This document shows, piece after piece, positions 1,782 through 24,332 of a stretch of 36,766 nucleotides of DNA. The notes under the pieces were generated by a model. It ran no database searches and was not told the origin of the DNA. It was given only the letters and a program-made list of their open reading frames with translations. Made by a program: the position numbers and the translations under genes. The stretch comes from an uncultured Allomuricauda sp. (GTDB lineage: Bacteria; Bacteroidota; Bacteroidia; Flavobacteriales; Flavobacteriaceae): the NCBI GenBank assembly GCA_937899065.1, contig CALBPG010000224.1, positions 1 through 36,766 of the forward strand, read 5' to 3'. The stretch's first letter is position 1, and each line of letters opens with the position of its first letter.

Positions 1782-1789
1782 TAACTTTA
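1782..1789 (+). promoter_or_regulatory. Candidate -7 element (TAACTTTA) for the TPR serine hydrolase
   Basis: TAACTTTA resembles the Bacteroidota -7 consensus TAnnTTTG and lies 33 bases before the chosen ATG. No TTG is found at the canonical 19-base upstream spacing. The same octamer precedes four other genes in this window. Confidence 0.4.
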
Positions 1790-1822
1790 TCAGAACCTTG
1801 TGCACAATCCAAAACACTACGG

Positions 1823-3325
1823 ATGAAAAAAATTATTCTAGTTTTTCCACTATTGCTTCTTTTTCTAAGTTGTTCAACCAAAAACAATACAGATGAAAGA
1901 ACAGATAAAATTGATTCCATTTTAAGGTCCTTGCAAAAAAAAGGTCTCTTCAATGGGAACCTACTTATTGCCGAAAAAGGAGAAATTATCTATGAAAAGT
2001 CTTTTGGATATTCAGATATCGAACAAAACAAAGCCTTAAATAGCAAGAGTATATTCAATATCGCTTCAGTTTCCAAATTGTTTACAGTTGTTGGTATTAT
2101 GGTGCTTGAAGAAGAAGGTAAATTGAATCTTAATGATAGGATTATCAAATACCTTCCTGAAATTCCCTATGAGAATATTTCTGTTAAAAATTTACTGACA
2201 CATACTTCAGGTCTTCCAAGAATCCAAAGTCAACCTTTTAGAAATCTTATTGAAGGAAAACAATATGATAATACACAAATAATAAACACTTATACCACCT
2301 CGGCACCTGACCTACATTTTGAAGCAGGAACCAATTATTTTTATTCTAACACCAATTACATTTTTCTTGCTTTGATTATAGAGCAACTATCCAATCAAAA
2401 TTTTAATCAGTTTTTGAAGACTAGGATTTTTGAAAAGGCCGGAATGACCGAAACCTTTTTAAGAAAAAAAAGAGTGCCGAAAGAATATCAAACCAGAATA
2501 GTTTCAAATTATACGAAACCTAAATGGTTGTCAAAGGATTTTCAAAATGTAAATCATTTAGAATCAAAAATTAGTGATGATTTAACATTCGGCAATGATT
2601 ATGGAGCTAGTTCTGTGTACACTACTACTGGAGATTTACTTAAGTTTCATAGTGCACTTCAAAATGAAGTATTGCTTAAATCGGAATCACTAAAAAAAAT
2701 GTACAGTCCCAACTACCTTTCTAACGCTAAAGAGTATACCGTTGATGCAAAATCCAATTATCCATCTTTAAGAGGATTGGGTTGGTGTATTGCTAAAGAC
2801 AAACCGAGCATTGTATATCATGCGGGGGGCATTGTAGGGTCGAGAAGCTTTTTTATCAGAAATATGGTGAAAGACCAATGTATTGTTATTCTTACAAACA
2901 ATCAGGAAATGAATCGCTACAACTTCACTTTTCCAATGAAGATACTTTCAGAGGAAAAGTATCAATTGGACCCAATATCCTTACCTAAATTATTCGCAAA
3001 AGAATACATTGAAAACGGTATTGAAGCGGCTTTAACAACATATAGCGAGGCGAAAAGTGATACGAGCTATATACAGTTTGTCGATTGGGATTTTGAGGAA
3101 ATTGGACAAGAACTTATGTCTAAAAAGGAGTATTTCTCGGCAATTGAGTTATACAAATTGTATACGGAGCAATATCCAGAAGACGAGTATTCGTGGTCGT
3201 TTCTGGGAGACTCCTACTATTCTAACAACAATTTGGAAAAGGCCTTGGAAAACTATAAAAAATCATTTGTAATCAATCCTGAACATAAGCATGCGAAAGA
3301 AATGATTGAAAAATTGAAGAAATAA
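1823..3325 (+). CDS. Serine hydrolase lipoprotein (beta-lactamase fold) with C-terminal TPR
   Basis: A 500-residue protein. The ATG at 1823 is chosen because it begins a lipoprotein signal ending in Leu-Ser-Cys (Cys17); the frame is open further upstream but would run through the terminator. The beta-lactamase/PBP-type domain shows the three catalytic motifs: Ser82-Val-Ser-Lys85, Tyr174-Ser-Asn176 and His333-Ala-Gly-Gly336 in place of Lys-Thr-Gly. The last 70 or so residues form one or two TPR-like helical hairpins. Such proteins are cell-envelope esterases, D,D-peptidases or amidases; the substrate is not predictable. The gene is AT-rich (77 G+C in 240 bases at 2281-2520, against 55 in 120 at 1261-1380), which suggests horizontal acquisition. 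Confidence 0.9.
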   Translation: MKKIILVFPLLLLFLSCSTKNNTDERTDKIDSILRSLQKKGLFNGNLLIAEKGEIIYEKSFGYSDIEQNKALNSKSIFNIASVSKLFTVVGIMVLEEEGKLNLNDRIIKYLPEIPYENISVKNLLTHTSGLPRIQSQPFRNLIEGKQYDNTQIINTYTTSAPDLHFEAGTNYFYSNTNYIFLALIIEQLSNQNFNQFLKTRIFEKAGMTETFLRKKRVPKEYQTRIVSNYTKPKWLSKDFQNVNHLESKISDDLTFGNDYGASSVYTTTGDLLKFHSALQNEVLLKSESLKKMYSPNYLSNAKEYTVDAKSNYPSLRGLGWCIAKDKPSIVYHAGGIVGSRSFFIRNMVKDQCIVILTNNQEMNRYNFTFPMKILSEEKYQLDPISLPKLFAKEYIENGIEAALTTYSEAKSDTSYIQFVDWDFEEIGQELMSKKEYFSAIELYKLYTEQYPEDEYSWSFLGDSYYSNNNLEKALENYKKSFVINPEHKHAKEMIEKLKK

Positions 3326-6759: not shown

Positions 6760-7938
6760 ATGAAAAAAATCAGCAAGCTTTTTTTGGTTTTGGTTATCCT
6801 AAGCGCTTGCAAAACCCAAACCGAAAAGGTTGATTATTTTGGCCAGCCTGAACCCTCAACCACTCCCGTGCCTTTTGCTGAAGGCATCATCTCACAGAAA
6901 AACAGATTTGAACATGGTATTTCATTTTCACCGGATAATCAAGAACTAGCCTTCGGCATATTAGATGCTAACAGTTCGAAGGGTACCATCTATCATTCAG
7001 AAAAAAGTAATGGCAGCTGGGCCAAACCTGAGAATTTTGCTCCATTACAAAATAAAAGTGTGTATCTCCCCTATTTCACACCTGACGGTAAGGCTTTGCT
7101 TTGCGCGCAAAGCATACCCGATACCAGTAGACTGTTTATCACGGACCTCTGGAAGTTGGATAAAACAAACGACAATTGGGGTACTCCAGAAAAATTGCTA
7201 AGCCCGCTGAGTTCAGATAGTCGGGAAGCTTCGGCCAGCATGTCCCTTAAGGGAAACTAGTATTTATCTTCCAATCGAAATAGTGAGGGTAAAGAAAATT
7301 GCTACACCGCAGATTTGTTTTCTGCTCCACTAACGGACAATAGCTACCGAAATGCCACCGCCATTGCTGAAGTAAATTCGGAAAGCGATGAAGAAAGCAT
7401 CTTTATTTCGCCCCAAGAGGATTACTTGATTTTTTGTCGTTATACCGACAACACCACTTGGATGGACTTGTATATCAGCTATCGAGATGCCAATAACCAA
7501 TGGACAACTCCTCGTCTCGTGGATGCTTCTATTAATTCAAAAGATTGGGATAGACGCCCCTATGTAAGCATGGATAACAAATTTTTGTTTTTCACCCGCT
7601 TACAAATTGAAGAAACGGGCCTGAAAGAATCCGATATTTATTGGGTGAAAACCTCAAAACTGTTCAAGCCTTTTGTTTATCGTCCGGTTTCCAGCTTTAC
7701 GGTAAAAACAGGTGAACCATTTGAAATTTACCTGCCCACCGATTTGTTTAATGATATCGATGGAGATAACCTGGAAGTTACTCTCGAAACCCAATTAGGT
7801 AGGGTGACCTTCGACGCCGATGAAATGAAATTGTTGGGCACCGCCAATTTTGAAGACAGTCATTTGATTGCCCTAACCGCGGCGGATTCGTTTTCCAATA
7901 AAGTAAAGCATCAAATTACGCTTGTTGCTAACAAATAG
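6760..7938 (+). pseudogene. WD40-like (PD40) beta-propeller lipoprotein, split by an in-frame TAG
   Basis: One frame of 392 codons interrupted only by TAG at 7258-7260 (codon 167). The first part (6760-7260) has a lipoprotein signal ending Leu-Ser-Ala-Cys (Cys17) and PD40 blades. The second part, in the same frame, continues the propeller without a gap and ends with an Ig-like or cadherin-like beta domain (residues about 310-392). The stop sits in the blade segment Gly-Asn-[stop]-Tyr-Leu-Ser-Ser-Asn-Arg, where this family normally has Gly-x-Leu-Tyr-Phe-Ser-Ser-x-Arg. A single base change TTG to TAG would explain it. The rest of the frame is undamaged, so the event is recent or a sequencing error. 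Such TolB-like lipoproteins sit in the outer membrane; the partner is unknown. Confidence 0.8.
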
Positions 7939-14184: not shown

Positions 14185-15684
14185 GTGCGGTTTGCGTTAA
14201 CTCTATTTCTAGTTCTTGTTACCTCCTATTTCAGCTTCGGACAAGCAAAAGATTCCCTTGAATACAAAATCAACCAAATTCTGCAAACCACCCAGGTGCC
14301 AGGTGGTGCAGTAGGTGTGATTTACCATGACTCTATTTATTTTGCTAAGGGTTTTGGATTTCGAGACCTTTCCGAAAAACTTCCGGTAGACACCCAAACG
14401 ATTTTTCCGATAGGTTCCTGCTCCAAAGCGTTTACAGCCACTTTGCTCGGTTGGGCGCAAGAAAAAGAGCTTTTGGACTTTAAAGATGCACCTTCGAAGT
14501 ACATCCGAGAACTGAAGTTTGCCAATGCAGACTTGGACCAAAAAATTCAGATTCGAGATTTGTTGGCCCATAGCACAGGTTTACCCAGACATGACTTATC
14601 ATGGTATTTGTTTCCCACGGAAGAAGCAGATAGCCTGACACAACGGATAGCCCATCTTGAACCTTTTGCGAAAGTCCGTGAACGTTACCATTACAACAAT
14701 TTTGGCTATTTCTTGGCGGGAGAATTAGCTGAAAAGGCATTTCAAATCTCATGGGAAAATGCTTTGGATTCATTGCTTTTCACACCCTTGAAGATGAAGC
14801 GCACCCATACGAACATCCTACAAAAAGAGGATATGAATACCGCTATGGGGTATACTTCTCCTTCGGATGCTATAGCAAATCCCATGGCCTACTATGATTT
14901 GCAAGCCATGGCTCCCGCCGGAAGCATTTGCAGTTCTTTGGAGGATATGTTAAAATGGACGCGATGTTGGCTTCATTTCGGAAAAAGCGATGGAGAAACT
15001 GTAATCCCAACTTCCTATGTACAGGAAGCCATAAGTTCGCAAACCATCATGCGGGCTAACTTGCCTAGTGACGCGGAACCTTATCTGTTCTTTTCCAATT
15101 ATGGTTACGGCTGGATGCTGAGTTCCTACAAGGGACGGTATCGCGTAGAACATGGAGGCAATATCAACGGATTCTCGGCCAACGTTTGCTTCTTACCTAC
15201 AGAAGGTTTGGGTGTTGTAGTATTGACCAACCAAAATAATTCCGACGCTACCTATCTCATTCGTAACACATTGATAGACTTCATCCTGAATTTGAATCCA
15301 TCTGACTGGTTGGGAGATTATCTAGCCGAAAGCGTAATGAAAAACACGCCAATACCTGCTAAAACCATAAAAGAAACCGATTCGAGACCGTTAAATGATT
15401 TTGTCGGAACCTATCAAAATCCCGGATATGGCACCATAAAGATTCTTTTGGAGAAAAATACGCTTCAAGCTCAGTTTCCAGTGGGGACCTTTAACTTGGA
15501 TAATACAGACAAGCTTACATTTCAATTAAAAGCGAATACCTCATCCGAAATTGACCCTGACACCGTTCCGAATCTTGAGTTTACATTCACTTCAAATTCC
15601 AACGAAAATATAAGTGGTCTTGCTATTCCGCTTGAGCCGACCTTGGAACCCATTCTCTTTCAAAAAATCAAACCAAAATCATGA
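14185..15684 (+). CDS. Periplasmic serine hydrolase (beta-lactamase fold), first of three
   Basis: A 499-residue protein starting with GTG 10 bases after the AraC stop. It has a cleavable signal peptide (Phe-Gly-Gln-Ala near residue 21). The catalytic motifs are Ser78-Cys-Ser-Lys81, Tyr170-Asn-Asn172 and His323-Gly-Gly325. The C-terminal region (from about residue 395) resembles the DUF3471 beta domain with the family phrase Gly-Thr-Tyr-Gln-Asn-Pro-Gly-Tyr-Gly-Thr. Members act as D-aminopeptidases, esterases or carboxypeptidases in the periplasm; the substrate is unknown. It shares most sequence features with the third hydrolase (positions 17051-18577). Its stop overlaps the next start by 4 bases. 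Confidence 0.92.
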   Translation: MRFALTLFLVLVTSYFSFGQAKDSLEYKINQILQTTQVPGGAVGVIYHDSIYFAKGFGFRDLSEKLPVDTQTIFPIGSCSKAFTATLLGWAQEKELLDFKDAPSKYIRELKFANADLDQKIQIRDLLAHSTGLPRHDLSWYLFPTEEADSLTQRIAHLEPFAKVRERYHYNNFGYFLAGELAEKAFQISWENALDSLLFTPLKMKRTHTNILQKEDMNTAMGYTSPSDAIANPMAYYDLQAMAPAGSICSSLEDMLKWTRCWLHFGKSDGETVIPTSYVQEAISSQTIMRANLPSDAEPYLFFSNYGYGWMLSSYKGRYRVEHGGNINGFSANVCFLPTEGLGVVVLTNQNNSDATYLIRNTLIDFILNLNPSDWLGDYLAESVMKNTPIPAKTIKETDSRPLNDFVGTYQNPGYGTIKILLEKNTLQAQFPVGTFNLDNTDKLTFQLKANTSSEIDPDTVPNLEFTFTSNSNENISGLAIPLEPTLEPILFQKIKPKS

Positions 15685-17051
15685 AAAACCGAAATATCAT
15701 TTCTCTGTTGATTGTTTGCTTCTTCTTCGGATGTAAACCTGCAACAAAAACCGAAACTTCATCCGATATTGAATCCAGCCCAAATTTTGAAGCTTTTGAA
15801 GAAAAAGTGCAACAGTGGCAAAGCGCTCTAAACATTCCTTACACCGGAGTGGGAATCATTGAAAATGGTGAGGTGCAATATGCCAGTGTCATCAGTGCTT
15901 CGGATAGTATTCCTAGGCAAGACATGCTCTTCAACCTGGCATCGGTAACCAAAGTGATTTTTGGCACCACGGTGATGAAGTTGTTTGACCAAGAGCAATT
16001 GGACCTCGATGCGCCGCTTCACCCCTATCATATCGATGACGATGTGAAAGATGACCCCAGACACCTTCAACTCACAGCGAGGGATGTATTGAGTCAACGT
16101 TCGGGTTTTGTGAATTGGCGCTGGAACCATCCTACCGGAAAACTAACCTTTGATTTTGACCCCGGTACTACCTGGAACTATTCTGGAGAAGGAATGGAAT
16201 ATCTCCGGTTGGCGATTGAAAAGAAGTTTGAAACAGGCATTCAAACCATAGCAGATTCACTGCTGTTTCAACCCGCGAACATGAAGGATACCAATCACGC
16301 GTGGGATGGTAAAACTCAATTTGAGCGGTTTAGTGGTTTTTATGACACCGAAGGAAAGCTTCATGAATTGGAAGACCATAGCTTTACTGCCCAAGCTGCA
16401 GATGATGTCATGTGCACCATTGCCGACCTAGACCATTTCGGTCGATATGTGGTGCAAGGTGCCGGGCTATCAGAAAAGAATTTTCAAACCATGGTCACCG
16501 CTCAAACCCCAATAAATGACAATCAAGACCAAGCACTGGCTTGGCGGTTGATTCAAAATTTACCCGATGGGGAATATGCCATCCATCATGGAGGGAATGA
16601 TATCGGCGTAGCTACTTTGATAGTTTTACTCCCCAAAAGTAAACGCGGTATTGTTGTAGTGACCAACGGGGATGGCGGCTTGGTCCTTTGCAATAATGTA
16701 GTACGGGAATTATGGTCCGAGGGAGCAGAAATCATCCATCGTGCATACAGAGCAGGTTCCATTGAGGATGTTCCAAAAGCTATTGTCCTAACTCCTGAGA
16801 TTTTGGAAGGATATGTAGGTGTGTACGAACAACCGAGCGGTCGAAAAGTGACCATCGCTCAAAGTGAAAATGGTCTTTTGATGAAGATGCCAGGCGTTCC
16901 TAACTTTCAATTGTTCCCTGAAAAGAAAACCCTATTCTTTCTAAAGGATTTTGACCCGAAAATCGAATTTTTGAAAACCCAGTCAGAAGACAACTTTAGC
17001 CTAAAAATCATTGAGGGAGAAAACACTATTCTTTGTAAAAAGATTCAATAA
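15681..17051 (+). CDS. Lipoprotein serine hydrolase (beta-lactamase fold), second of three
   Basis: A 456-residue lipoprotein with lipobox Phe-Phe-Gly-Cys (Cys18). The nucleophile motif is Ser88-Val-Thr-Lys91. The second motif reads Tyr166-Ser-Gly168 instead of Tyr-x-Asn, and the third is His302-Gly-Gly. The loss of the Asn leaves the Ser-Lys-Tyr triad intact, as in esterase-like (EstB/EstU-type) members of the family, and points to a substrate different from its two neighbours. A short C-terminal beta domain follows from about residue 375. It is coupled to both sides (ATGA overlap upstream, TAATG overlap downstream), so the three hydrolases are made together but differ in anchoring. Confidence 0.9.
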   Translation: MKNRNIISLLIVCFFFGCKPATKTETSSDIESSPNFEAFEEKVQQWQSALNIPYTGVGIIENGEVQYASVISASDSIPRQDMLFNLASVTKVIFGTTVMKLFDQEQLDLDAPLHPYHIDDDVKDDPRHLQLTARDVLSQRSGFVNWRWNHPTGKLTFDFDPGTTWNYSGEGMEYLRLAIEKKFETGIQTIADSLLFQPANMKDTNHAWDGKTQFERFSGFYDTEGKLHELEDHSFTAQAADDVMCTIADLDHFGRYVVQGAGLSEKNFQTMVTAQTPINDNQDQALAWRLIQNLPDGEYAIHHGGNDIGVATLIVLLPKSKRGIVVVTNGDGGLVLCNNVVRELWSEGAEIIHRAYRAGSIEDVPKAIVLTPEILEGYVGVYEQPSGRKVTIAQSENGLLMKMPGVPNFQLFPEKKTLFFLKDFDPKIEFLKTQSEDNFSLKIIEGENTILCKKIQ

Positions 17052-18577
17052 TGCAGCACCATCTATGTAAGGTCGCTTTGCTTACCCTTTTTGTGGTTTT
17101 TATCTATAAGGGGCATACACAAGAACCGTTTCTCTCTTTCTTGGACAACAACATGGACAGCGTCGTACAGGCAGAATTGAAGCGATGGGATGTCCCCGGA
17201 CTTTCCCTTGGCATTATAATGAATGATACTGTGCGATACAACAAGGGATTTGGTGTTGCCTCCATAAATACCCCTGAAAAAGTTGATGAACACACCCTTT
17301 TCCGGATTGGTTCCTTGACCAAAGCCATGACTTGCGCCACCGTTTTATTGGCAGAGCATCGCGAAGAGCTTTCCATACAGAACAAATTGGTCAACTATTT
17401 TCCAGATTTTCATTTGGAGAAAGCATCAGTAGCAAACGTTTTGGACCTTGAAGACTTTATGTGCGGTCAAACTGGTCTTGGGGCACATTTTGGTGACTTT
17501 TTTTATTGGAAAACCCAAAAGGAAATCAAGGATGTTATACCCACATTAGCACTTTTTGACTATCAAGAAAAAATCCGATATCGCTTTCGATACAACAATC
17601 TCGCCTATATGGTTTTGGGCGAAGTCCTTGAAAAAAGCAGTGGTGTCTCCTGGGCGGGGCAAATCAACAAGCATTTGTTTGAGCCTTTGGAAATGAGCCA
17701 TTCTTTTCCTTACCAAAGCCTTGTACCAGATAAACTTGCCATTGCTGCACCACACTTTAAAGATGGGATTATAATCCAGTTGCCTGCAGAAAACATTGCC
17801 AACATGGGACCGGCAGGTTCGGTCCTTTCAACGAGTACAGATATGCTGAAGTGGTTAAGAGCCCTTTTGAGTTTGGAGCAAGACAGAGAAAGGGTTTTCC
17901 CTGTGTCTGTTTTGAAAAAAATACGAAGACCGCATACGCTGTTGGGGTATCGAAGAAGTAAAAGTGATTCGGACCAACTTCGATTTCTATTCTACGGAAA
18001 AGGATGGTCTATTTCCGACGAGCATCAGCGGTTACATTATAGTCACAATGGGGGAACGGATGGTTTTCTTTCTCAGTTGCTTATGATTCCAGAGGAAGGT
18101 TTCGGTGTGGTTGTACTTACGAATTCCCGTTCACACAATCTCGCAGAAGGGCTCGCCGAGTATATCCGAAAAGTCTACTTCCAAGATTCAACTGAAAACT
18201 ATTTTGAGGGCCTATTTGATGAATTCACAAACGACCAAAAAAAAGAAAATGACCTTTATTATTCTCTTAGAGATAGTACCCAAAAACAAAAAACACTGTT
18301 AGAATTAGAACCTTCCCGACTAGGTGTTTACAAAAATACCGGCTACGGAACCATTACTGTTTTACAAAACGCCAAGGGTGCAACGCTTCATTTTAATGCA
18401 CATCAAAATGAAGTCACTGCAAGATTGGCTCTTAAGAAGGATAATGCTTATCATGTGGTTTTTGATAGCGCTGTTTTGGGCCATACCGAACTTAGGTTTT
18501 ACGAGGAAGATGAGCAACTAAAGGGGTTCTATTTAAGTATGGATAATACGTCCTACTATTTTCAAAAACAACCTTAA
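17051..18577 (+). CDS. Periplasmic serine hydrolase (beta-lactamase fold), third of three
   Basis: A 508-residue protein with an N-terminal signal (hydrophobic residues 8-19, probable cleavage after Gly-His-Thr-Gln). Catalytic motifs are Ser88-Leu-Thr-Lys91, Tyr181-Asn-Asn183 and His332-Asn-Gly-Gly335. The C-terminal domain has Gly-Val-Tyr-Lys-Asn-Thr-Gly-Tyr-Gly-Thr, the same phrase as in the first hydrolase, so the two look like older paralogues. The start overlaps the stop of the second gene (TAATG). Its stop is 7 bases from the end of the convergent DUF2200 gene, with no terminator visible between them. Confidence 0.92.
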   Translation: MQHHLCKVALLTLFVVFIYKGHTQEPFLSFLDNNMDSVVQAELKRWDVPGLSLGIIMNDTVRYNKGFGVASINTPEKVDEHTLFRIGSLTKAMTCATVLLAEHREELSIQNKLVNYFPDFHLEKASVANVLDLEDFMCGQTGLGAHFGDFFYWKTQKEIKDVIPTLALFDYQEKIRYRFRYNNLAYMVLGEVLEKSSGVSWAGQINKHLFEPLEMSHSFPYQSLVPDKLAIAAPHFKDGIIIQLPAENIANMGPAGSVLSTSTDMLKWLRALLSLEQDRERVFPVSVLKKIRRPHTLLGYRRSKSDSDQLRFLFYGKGWSISDEHQRLHYSHNGGTDGFLSQLLMIPEEGFGVVVLTNSRSHNLAEGLAEYIRKVYFQDSTENYFEGLFDEFTNDQKKENDLYYSLRDSTQKQKTLLELEPSRLGVYKNTGYGTITVLQNAKGATLHFNAHQNEVTARLALKKDNAYHVVFDSAVLGHTELRFYEEDEQLKGFYLSMDNTSYYFQKQP

Positions 18578-21937: not shown

Positions 21938-22687
21938 TTAAATCGCTTTGATAATAGCGACAAAATCTTCAGCTTTTAGGGAAGCGCCGCCAATCAATCC
22001 GCCATCAACATCAGGCTTGGAAAAAATATCCGTCGCATTGTTTGGTTTCACACTACCTCCATATAAAATGGATACTTGTTCGGCAATCTCTGTGCTGAAA
22101 GCTTCCGTAATGGTGCTACGAATGAAGGCGTGCATCTCTTGGGCTTGCTCGGGGCTTGCCGTTTCTCCGGTACCAATGGCCCAATCTGGCTCGTAGGCTA
22201 ACACAATTTGAGGCCAAGCTACCGCATCCAATCCAAACAGCGCATTCTGCAATTGGGATTTCACTACATCAAAATGATTTCCAGACTTGCGCTCTTCCAA
22301 TTCTTCCCCAAAACAAAAGATGATTTGCATGCCCTTGTCCAATGCAGTTTTTACTTTTTGAGCTAACAGCGCATCATCCTCCCCAAAAAGTGACCTTCTT
22401 TCCGAGTGTCCGAGAATCACGGTTTCTACACCTATATCCAACAGCATATCGGCTGAAATCTCTCCCGTATAGGCGCCATTGGCCGCGAAGTGCATGTTTT
22501 GAGCTGCTACCACTATAGTGGAAGATTGAAGACTATTTTGGGCTGTACTCAAATTAACAAAGGTCGGCGCCACGATTACCGACGCGTGGGTATCGGGTAA
22601 TTTTGCGGAGAGTTCGTCCAACAAACTTTCGGTTTCTGAGGCAGTTTTGTTCATTTTCCAGTTGCCTGCCACAATTTGGTTTCTCAT
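21938..22687 (-). CDS. tpiA: Triosephosphate isomerase
   Basis: A 249-residue glycolytic enzyme interconverting dihydroxyacetone phosphate and glyceraldehyde 3-phosphate. The catalytic residues are Lys11 in Asn-Trp-Lys-Met-Asn-Lys, His94 in Leu-Gly-His-Ser-Glu-Arg-Arg, and Glu166 in Ala-Tyr-Glu-Pro. The phosphate-binding end (Leu-Tyr-Gly-Gly-Ser-Val) is complete. The residue after Glu-Pro is Asp168, where the family almost always has Val at the hinge of the mobile loop 6. It follows the DoxX gene by 11 bases from that gene's ancestral stop, and precedes prmA by 9 bases, within one operon. Confidence 0.96.
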   Translation of the reverse strand: MRNQIVAGNWKMNKTASETESLLDELSAKLPDTHASVIVAPTFVNLSTAQNSLQSSTIVVAAQNMHFAANGAYTGEISADMLLDIGVETVILGHSERRSLFGEDDALLAQKVKTALDKGMQIIFCFGEELEERKSGNHFDVVKSQLQNALFGLDAVAWPQIVLAYEPDWAIGTGETASPEQAQEMHAFIRSTITEAFSTEIAEQVSILYGGSVKPNNATDIFSKPDVDGGLIGGASLKAEDFVAIIKAI

Positions 22688-22698
22688 AGGTATGTCTT

Positions 22699-22806
22699 TT
22701 ACAATTGTATCTTATCAAGGTCGTTATAGTGTACTTTCTGGGTGATGGTTCCTTTTTCAACCACCAAAACCGCTGGATTTGATCGCACTATAGTTTTTAA
22801 AGCCGT
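22699..22806 (-). pseudogene. Untranslated 3' tail of the DoxX gene, after a premature stop
   Basis: After the TAA at 22807-22809 the same frame continues for 35 sense codons to a second TAA at 22699-22701. The residues read ALKTIVRSNPAVLVVEKG, then Thr-Ile-Thr-Gln-Lys-Val-His-Tyr and Asp-Leu-Asp-Lys-Ile-Gln-Leu. This is the normal C-terminus of the family, including the Pro of the thioredoxin fold. It ends 11 bases before tpiA, which fits the tight spacing of the rest of the operon. It is not translated unless the TAA is read through. Confidence 0.85.
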
Positions 22807-23793
22807 TTAATCCGTGAAATAAAAATCAAAATCCAGACGATATTGCGCTTTCAAATCATTTTTTAAATCATCATTGGAAGCGGACATGCCAATAACTTTG
22901 TATCCTTTGGCTTGCGCTTTGCTTGCTATGGCATTGACCACGTTGAACACCGAACGGTTGGTCTTGGCCAAATCATAGGCCACCACCATCACTAATTTGG
23001 GTTCTTCCAATAAACTTTCGCTGTGGTCTGTCCCGTCTTTTTCAATGGTGAAATCATGAATAGGCGGCTCGTAGCCCTCTTGGATTTCAGTGGTTTCCAC
23101 TCCAACAAAAGTTCCTTCTACCGTCGGGTACTCGCCCAAAGTGGTGACGATTTTTTCTGTTCCATTTTGGTCAAATTTCCATGCATATTCATAAATCGCC
23201 TTTGGTGCATCCTCGGGAACAACCATTCCCTCTTTGATGTTGGTGCCAATTTTGTAGGGTCTGAAGTCAATTGAAGGTAAATGATTCAATACGTGATTCG
23301 CGAAAACTCCACAAGCAATCAAAGCTATTACAGCCACGCTCCAATTCGCAAGATTTCCAAAGATAGGTTTGATGTGTTTCTTCCCCACAAACAAAACCAC
23401 AATCAGAATTAACAATACCACATCCTTACCAAAAGATTCCCATGGGGTCAGTTTGACGGCATCGCCAAAACAACCGCAGTCCGTTACTTTATTGAAATAG
23501 GCAGAATAAAAGGTGAGAAAAGTAAAAAAGACAATCATCAACAATAAGCTCCAAACCGTGAAGCGCACTTTGAATCCTATCAATAAAAAAACACCCAGCA
23601 AAACTTCTACAATGACCACAAATAGAGAAATGGCCAAGGCATATGGTGCCAAAGAGGGTAAATCAAGTACCCCGGGGCTAAAGTATTCTTCCAACTTGAA
23701 CGAAAAACCAACCGGGTCGTTCAATTTAATGATTCCACTGATGATAAAAAGCACACCAACCACAATTCTTGCAAAGGCGACTACCCACTTCAT
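22807..23793 (-). CDS. DoxX/MauE membrane protein with thioredoxin-like tail, truncated
   Basis: The BT_3928-type protein common in Bacteroidota. Residues 1-140 form the four-helix DoxX domain with Ser-Gly-Ile-Ile-Lys-Leu-Asn-Asp-Pro near the start and an Asp-Cys-Gly-Cys-Phe-Gly-Asp motif near residue 110, as in MauE. A fifth helix lies near residues 155-175, then a periplasmic thioredoxin-like domain. Translation stops at codon 329 by TAA at 22807; the ancestral protein was 364 residues. Codon context (Thr-Asp then TAA then Thr-Ala-Leu) suggests Glu GAA became TAA. The lost 36 residues include the last strands of the thioredoxin fold, so the product is probably impaired. It overlaps the DUF1599 stop by 4 bases. 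The family is thought to act in periplasmic redox. Confidence 0.88.
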   Translation of the reverse strand: MKWVVAFARIVVGVLFIISGIIKLNDPVGFSFKLEEYFSPGVLDLPSLAPYALAISLFVVIVEVLLGVFLLIGFKVRFTVWSLLLMIVFFTFLTFYSAYFNKVTDCGCFGDAVKLTPWESFGKDVVLLILIVVLFVGKKHIKPIFGNLANWSVAVIALIACGVFANHVLNHLPSIDFRPYKIGTNIKEGMVVPEDAPKAIYEYAWKFDQNGTEKIVTTLGEYPTVEGTFVGVETTEIQEGYEPPIHDFTIEKDGTDHSESLLEEPKLVMVVAYDLAKTNRSVFNVVNAIASKAQAKGYKVIGMSASNDDLKNDLKAQYRLDFDFYFTD

Positions 23794-24332
23794 TTGCCGT
23801 AGTTTAAATGGATGAGCGCAAAGACCGCATAATTAATGATGTCTTGATAATTGGCATCAATCCCTTCACTGACCAAAGTAGCCCCTTGATTGTCCTCAAT
23901 TTGCTTGACCCTTAACAGTTTTTGCAGAATCAAATCAGTTAGGGAACTTACTCGCATATCGCGCCACGCTTCCCCATAATCGTGATTCTTGTTCTCCATC
24001 AAGTTTTTGGTTTGTCCGATGGCGTTATCATATTCATTCAAAGCTTCCTCCAAGGTCAAGTCAGCTTGTTCCGATATGCCTTTGTCGATTTGAATCAAGG
24101 CCATAATGGAGTAGTTGATAATCCCAATAAATTCGGATTGTTCCCCTTCATCCACCTTACGCACCTCGTTTTCCTGTAAACTTCTAATACGTTGTGCTTT
24201 GATGAAAATCTGGTCAGTAAGCGATGGAAGTCGTAAAATACGCCAAGCCGTTCCATAATCCTTCGTCTTCTTGATAAAAAGTTCTCGGCAATCCTTTATA
24301 ATGGAATCATACTGAGCGGAATTTTGCTGCAT
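23790..24332 (-). CDS. DUF1599 protein
   Basis: A 180-residue cytoplasmic protein made of two similar halves, each with a Lys-x-x-Asp-Tyr-Gly-x-Ala-Trp-Arg motif (near residues 22-32 and 114-124) followed by Ser-Leu-Thr-Asp and an Asn-Tyr-x-x-x-Ala-Leu-Ile helix. This is the DUF1599 (nucleotide modification associated domain) pattern, one domain duplicated. Acidic and Tyr/Asp residues in each motif suggest a nucleotide or metal site; the biochemical role is not known. It begins the - strand operon DUF1599-doxX-tpiA-prmA and is divergent from folP. Confidence 0.9.
   Translation of the reverse strand: MQQNSAQYDSIIKDCRELFIKKTKDYGTAWRILRLPSLTDQIFIKAQRIRSLQENEVRKVDEGEQSEFIGIINYSIMALIQIDKGISEQADLTLEEALNEYDNAIGQTKNLMENKNHDYGEAWRDMRVSSLTDLILQKLLRVKQIEDNQGATLVSEGIDANYQDIINYAVFALIHLNYGK

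Follow-up and report, generated by a model that had tools for sequence, protein, structure and literature searches.

Proteins of the BT_3928 family (NF045576) are, as judged from their domain content, composed of a MauE/DoxX membrane domain and a thioredoxin-fold domain. A limited, titles-level literature search yielded nothing useful on this family and no paper on isolated nonsense errors in draft assemblies. Based on a structure model of an intact relative (locus L074; mean pLDDT 83.4, pTM 0.69), the soluble part of the protein (residues about 175-364) is predicted to be similar to ResA (2f9s, Foldseek E value 6.6e-4) and to 1z5y_E (Z 11.5, rmsd 2.6 over 111 residues). The gene is present in 58 of the 59 genomes searched. 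In 75 of 80 GTDB loci its product is 364-368 aa long; the remaining 5 (L082, L087, L113, L123 and L126; frames of 555-577 codons) carry a C-terminal fusion to a further domain. Two of these fused loci were examined with Pfam, and DUF6624 was matched above the cut-off in L126 and weakly in L113.

The interrupted gene and its relatives

The gene analysed here lies in the window, meaning the whole stretch of 36,766 nucleotides under study, which is derived from an uncultured Allomuricauda sp. The relevant features of the window are:

22810-23793, minus strand: BT_3928-family frame of 328 aa, ending at the first TAA (frame reading; NF045576, PF07291, PF07681)
22807-22809, minus strand: in-frame TAA (Glu, Gln or Met at the same position in 115 of 115 related loci)
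22702-22806, minus strand: open tail of 35 codons matching the conserved C-terminus (frame, relatives, conservation, model of an intact relative)
22699-22701, minus strand: second TAA (close to where relatives end)
21938-22687, minus strand: tpiA, triose-phosphate isomerase, the downstream gene, frame intact (frame, profile search, comparison with relatives)
23790-24332, minus strand: DUF1599 gene, the upstream neighbour, frame intact (frame, Pfam, comparison with relatives)
22184-22186, minus strand: tpiA codon 168, Asp versus Val in 104 other sequences, in the YEPVWAIGTG stretch (alignment)
7258-7260, plus strand: second lone stop of the window, a TAG that is the only interruption of the PD40-like lipoprotein frame at 6760-7938 (frame scan)

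Starting from an ATG at 23793 on the minus strand, the BT_3928 frame runs for 328 codons to the TAA, the only stop that a frame scan found within it, and 11 bases (22688-22698) separate the second TAA from the ATG of tpiA at 22687. All of these positions had been given correctly in a preliminary description of this DNA. The frame scores 391 bits against NF045576, with a curated cut-off of 250, and is thus a member of the family. Up to the stop, it holds the MauE/DoxX membrane domain (PF07291, 80.1 bits; PF07681, 34.1 bits), including the DCGCFG loop, and then most of the thioredoxin-fold domain. From about 19 kb on, the genes of the window are collinear with those of the relatives G014 and G023, and all frames except the BT_3928 gene are intact. 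A promoter scan found no promoter near the gene; such scans are not informative in the phylum Bacteroidota. Elsewhere in the window, two tRNA-Glu (ttc) genes are located in tandem near the contig end (36292-36481, minus strand), and PF00144 serine hydrolases are encoded three in tandem at 14185-18577, with a fourth at 1784-3322 (plus strand).

The stop position was compared across 115 related loci, comprising 35 same-genus genomes and 80 named GTDB loci (the best 80 of 575 confirmed relatives); the two sets overlap and represent 104 distinct DNA sequences. Glu, which the preliminary description had expected at the stop, is found in 104 of the loci, Gln in 8 and Met in 3. The residues following the stop, proposed to be the C-terminus of the family, match it in 35 of 35 same-genus genomes and 80 of 80 GTDB loci, and by these alignments the match is far beyond chance. 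The 14 more distant loci that were fetched all continue through an LKT/IKT/CKT motif, and a tpiA motif lies at most 900 nt downstream in all 35 same-genus loci. The preliminary description took the operon gene to be undamaged apart from the stop, which it ascribed either to a consensus error or to a nonsense mutation of recent date. Relatives ending at the same position, or orthologues devoid of the tail, would have contradicted this proposal; all 115 loci read through and carry the tail, and none ends at the position of the TAA. A natural short form was rejected, given that every one of the 75 GTDB loci without a fusion encodes 364-368 aa. Among the relatives searched, from which the organism's own or very near genomes were possibly left out, no other genome of this species was found.

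Relaxed constraint and further lesions, which would characterize a pseudogene, were not found in the gene. In comparison with 7 chosen relatives, dN was 0.127-0.190 for the tail and 0.201-0.221 for the body (dS being saturated), and 16 of 36 positions in the tail versus 100 of 328 before the stop are invariant in 33 relatives, as counted by hand. By both measures, conservation of the tail equals or exceeds that of the body, and the stop, if real, must be very young. In the model of the intact relative, the part after position 328 is predicted to contain the last two helices (329-336 and 356-361), Pro340 and two strands (341-346 and 349-355), in agreement with the earlier expectation that the last strands and the Pro of the thioredoxin fold would be lost. 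A model of the deposited 328-aa form gave a pTM of 0.54. A complete C-terminal thioredoxin-fold domain, present in all 115 relatives, is absent from the deposited frame.

Lone stops elsewhere in the genome

Isolated stops were sought in 621 kb of the 269-contig genome, where three sampled contigs (L173, L182 and L190) consisted only of N and gave nothing, and in 880 kb of control sequence from three relatives (G014, 248 kb; G023, 237 kb; G024, 395 kb). A codon-usage scan with a sensitivity of about 64% identified 23 candidates in this genome versus 4, 6 and 7 in G014, G023 and G024, respectively. A stricter scan identified 14 versus 2, 2 and 0. For 12 of the 23 candidates, a profile or a relative runs across the stop: six TAA (BT_3928 gene, DUF5683 gene, glucose/sorbosone dehydrogenase, GH30, GH17 and nadC), five TAG (PD40 frame, trmD, HHH_3 protein, sucA and CarbopepD_reg_2 protein) and one TGA (rpsF). 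The PD40 stop at 7258 was included even though the NF052230 match spanning it (51-218) scores far below the family cut-off; leaving it out gives a count of 11. The other 11 candidates (L174:8607, L175, L176, L178, L188, both L233, L234:3805, both L240 and window position 21938) were not counted, as they reflect adjacent genes sharing a frame, the natural end of a gene or stops with no profile across them.

Among the 17 control candidates, one was supported above the cut-off, a lone TAA in a DUF427 gene of G023 (L211:1884), and one below it. The excess in this genome, about 20 lone stops per Mb (12 in 621 kb), corresponds to p values of 0.0005 (11 versus 1) and 0.0014 (12 versus 2). It should be noted that the supporting evidence was wider for this genome than for the controls; restricting it to Pfam gives 7 versus 1 (p 0.011). 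An excess of isolated stops, as expected of consensus errors, is thus found in the genome.

Counting by homology gave 4 stops in 31,110 aa versus 1 in 52,600 aa of the three relatives, a difference not significant alone (Fisher p 0.067). These are the BT_3928 stop and stops in C145 (K in the relative), C171 (L) and C4 (E, near the C-terminus), the control stop being in G023 (L212). Four of eight homology rows in this genome (three L171, one L236) and three of four in the controls (L210, two L230) had been dropped as antisense or spurious frames. The stop in G023, a fragmented assembly, is a lone TAA at L212:18315, in a frame that is 82% identical to an intact frame here and looks like metG. 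No convincing frameshift was found in 110 regions, frameshift-like rows (1, 5, 3 and 0) being judged mostly antisense as a group and not singly.

The mix of stop codons fits random substitution, for which 46% TAA, 35% TAG and 20% TGA are expected (observed 6, 5 and 1; p 0.60). The 12 stops show some clustering by contig (p 0.042), a pattern expected from uneven coverage. Four lone stops fall within 40 kb of contig C10 (1-40000; L180 and L250). The same contig shows a jump in private changes at about 21.6 kb (23 of 119 in a PriA piece, and 4 in the first nine codons of the neighbouring gene), where there is perhaps a chimeric join, judging from the sequence.

The scan had flagged four housekeeping genes, trmD, rpsF, nadC and sucA, which were examined for that reason; clean relatives therefore indicate the privacy of the stops and not a rate. 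The internal TAA of nadC occurs in none of the 32 other genomes with a match, the TGA of bS6 (rpsF) in none of 36 other genomes, and the TAG of sucA, located in a 454-codon fragment at a contig edge, in none of 27 full-length others. The trmD gene carries a TAG at codon 38. Of the 30 relatives fetched, 29 have an open frame there and one was not matched by the search pattern; apparent trmD stops in relatives were matches extending past the natural gene end. No intact spare copy of nadC, trmD or bS6 was found, each yielding a single match in the genome. TrmD is essential in well-studied bacteria, and stops in trmD and rpsF would hardly be tolerated.

Consensus error, mutation or readthrough

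The simplest reading, and the one we consider likely, is that the TAA at 22807 represents a base-substitution error in the draft consensus of this genome, a member of the Allomuricauda/Flagellimonas group. The recurrence of lone stops in this genome, also in housekeeping genes, shifts the weight toward such an error, and the occurrence of all three stop kinds, the varied residues replaced, the involvement of genes that can hardly be lost and the lack of a convincing frameshift all fit substitution errors in a consensus. We infer that the lone stops are probably consensus errors and that the assembly is probably metagenome-assembled. The living organism would then most likely encode the usual full-length BT_3928 protein of about 364 aa, with Glu where the consensus has a stop. 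The private Asp at codon 168 of tpiA, 0.6 kb away from the BT_3928 stop, may be another consensus error.

Several observations stand against a consensus error. Random errors should yield about 16 missense changes per nonsense change, and such an excess is not clearly seen. In RpoB, none of the 615 columns that are invariant in 25 other genomes carries a private change, with only about one expected at this rate; within the genus, this genome has 8 private changes at 1,167 RpoB columns, second of 15. Four window genes show 1 private change at 295 columns, which is ordinary among 98 sequences, and seven window genes show 3 at 467 columns. The count for contig C10 (64 of 996 versus 12 of 911 in the next genome) was set aside, as a likely antisense frame and the divergent PriA piece inflate it. 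Further, contigs of 20-80 kb suggest fair coverage, the homology count alone is not significant, and rpoB, rpoC, mutS, mutY and prfA contain no stop.

The main rival, which we regard as unlikely, is a genuine nonsense mutation that arose very recently in the strain. The product, of 328 aa, would retain the membrane domain in full but have a thioredoxin-fold domain devoid of the conserved Pro, the last two strands and the last helices; judging from the models, this domain would probably misfold, and the gene would be a new pseudogene or a tolerated truncation. The intact remainder of the operon agrees with such a mutation, as do the absence of decay in the tail, expected of a young mutation, and the clean sequence of most conserved genes tested. 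However, the lost tail belongs to the best conserved parts of a protein present in 58 of the 59 genomes, many sibling stops exist, some of them in genes that can hardly be lost, and no convincing frameshift accompanies them, whereas decaying genomes usually show frameshifts too.

Accelerated mutation, whether in a mutator lineage or in a genome at an early stage of decay, would mean many true nonsense changes and could account for the density of lone stops in the sample and for the position of the genome as a fairly deep branch of its genus. We nevertheless consider it very unlikely: mutS and mutY, the two mut genes examined, are present and open, RpoB is free of private changes at its 615 invariant columns, and the genes struck include trmD and rpsF.

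A real stop that is translated, via a suppressor tRNA or leaky termination with the full protein still made, would suit the constrained tail and the recurrence of lone stops in housekeeping genes that must be made, but is extremely improbable, since the 34 tRNAs found (150 of 286 first-look candidates scored; genome 92.3% complete) include none with an anticodon for TAA, TAG or TGA, prfA is intact, the three stops replace Glu, Leu, Gly and other residues of relatives so that no single suppressor fits, long frames in the sample are closed by TAA (194), TAG (66) and TGA (58), and the stop, which programmed readthrough should leave conserved among relatives, is found in 0 of 115 loci. A suppressor or altered code was rejected as a likely explanation based on the tRNAs found, the intact prfA and the closing of long frames by all three stops. 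It is scarcely credible that, without a dedicated suppressor tRNA, all three stops would be read through at a useful rate in trmD, rpsF, nadC, sucA and the BT_3928 gene.

If the TAA is a consensus error, annotating the gene as truncated would be wrong, and the lone stops of this genome call for reads before they are taken for pseudogenes or recoding. If the stop is real, it would represent a natural truncation in a conserved family of unknown function, with the membrane domain kept and the thioredoxin-fold domain lost, and would help to separate the roles of these two parts.

Comparison with known systems

The lone stops described here share several properties with isolated nonsense errors in draft assemblies, namely single stops in otherwise intact frames, several affected genes in one genome and the presence of all three stop types. 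They differ in being probable rather than established errors. The interrupted gene resembles other members of the BT_3928 family with respect to its profile score, its MauE/DoxX domain with the DCGCFG loop and its placement between an upstream DUF1599 gene and a downstream tpiA, as in relatives. The difference lies in its end, with the deposited frame stopping at residue 328 while relatives reach about 364. The intact relative is predicted to share the fold of its soluble part with ResA/DsbE-type thioredoxin-fold proteins, as indicated by the matches to 2f9s and 1z5y_E. In contrast to those proteins, the BT_3928 thioredoxin-fold domain does not contain a conserved active-site cysteine pair, given that the only cysteines invariant in 33 relatives, C106 and C108, are both part of the membrane domain, and the version deposited here additionally lacks the Pro and the last strands of the fold.
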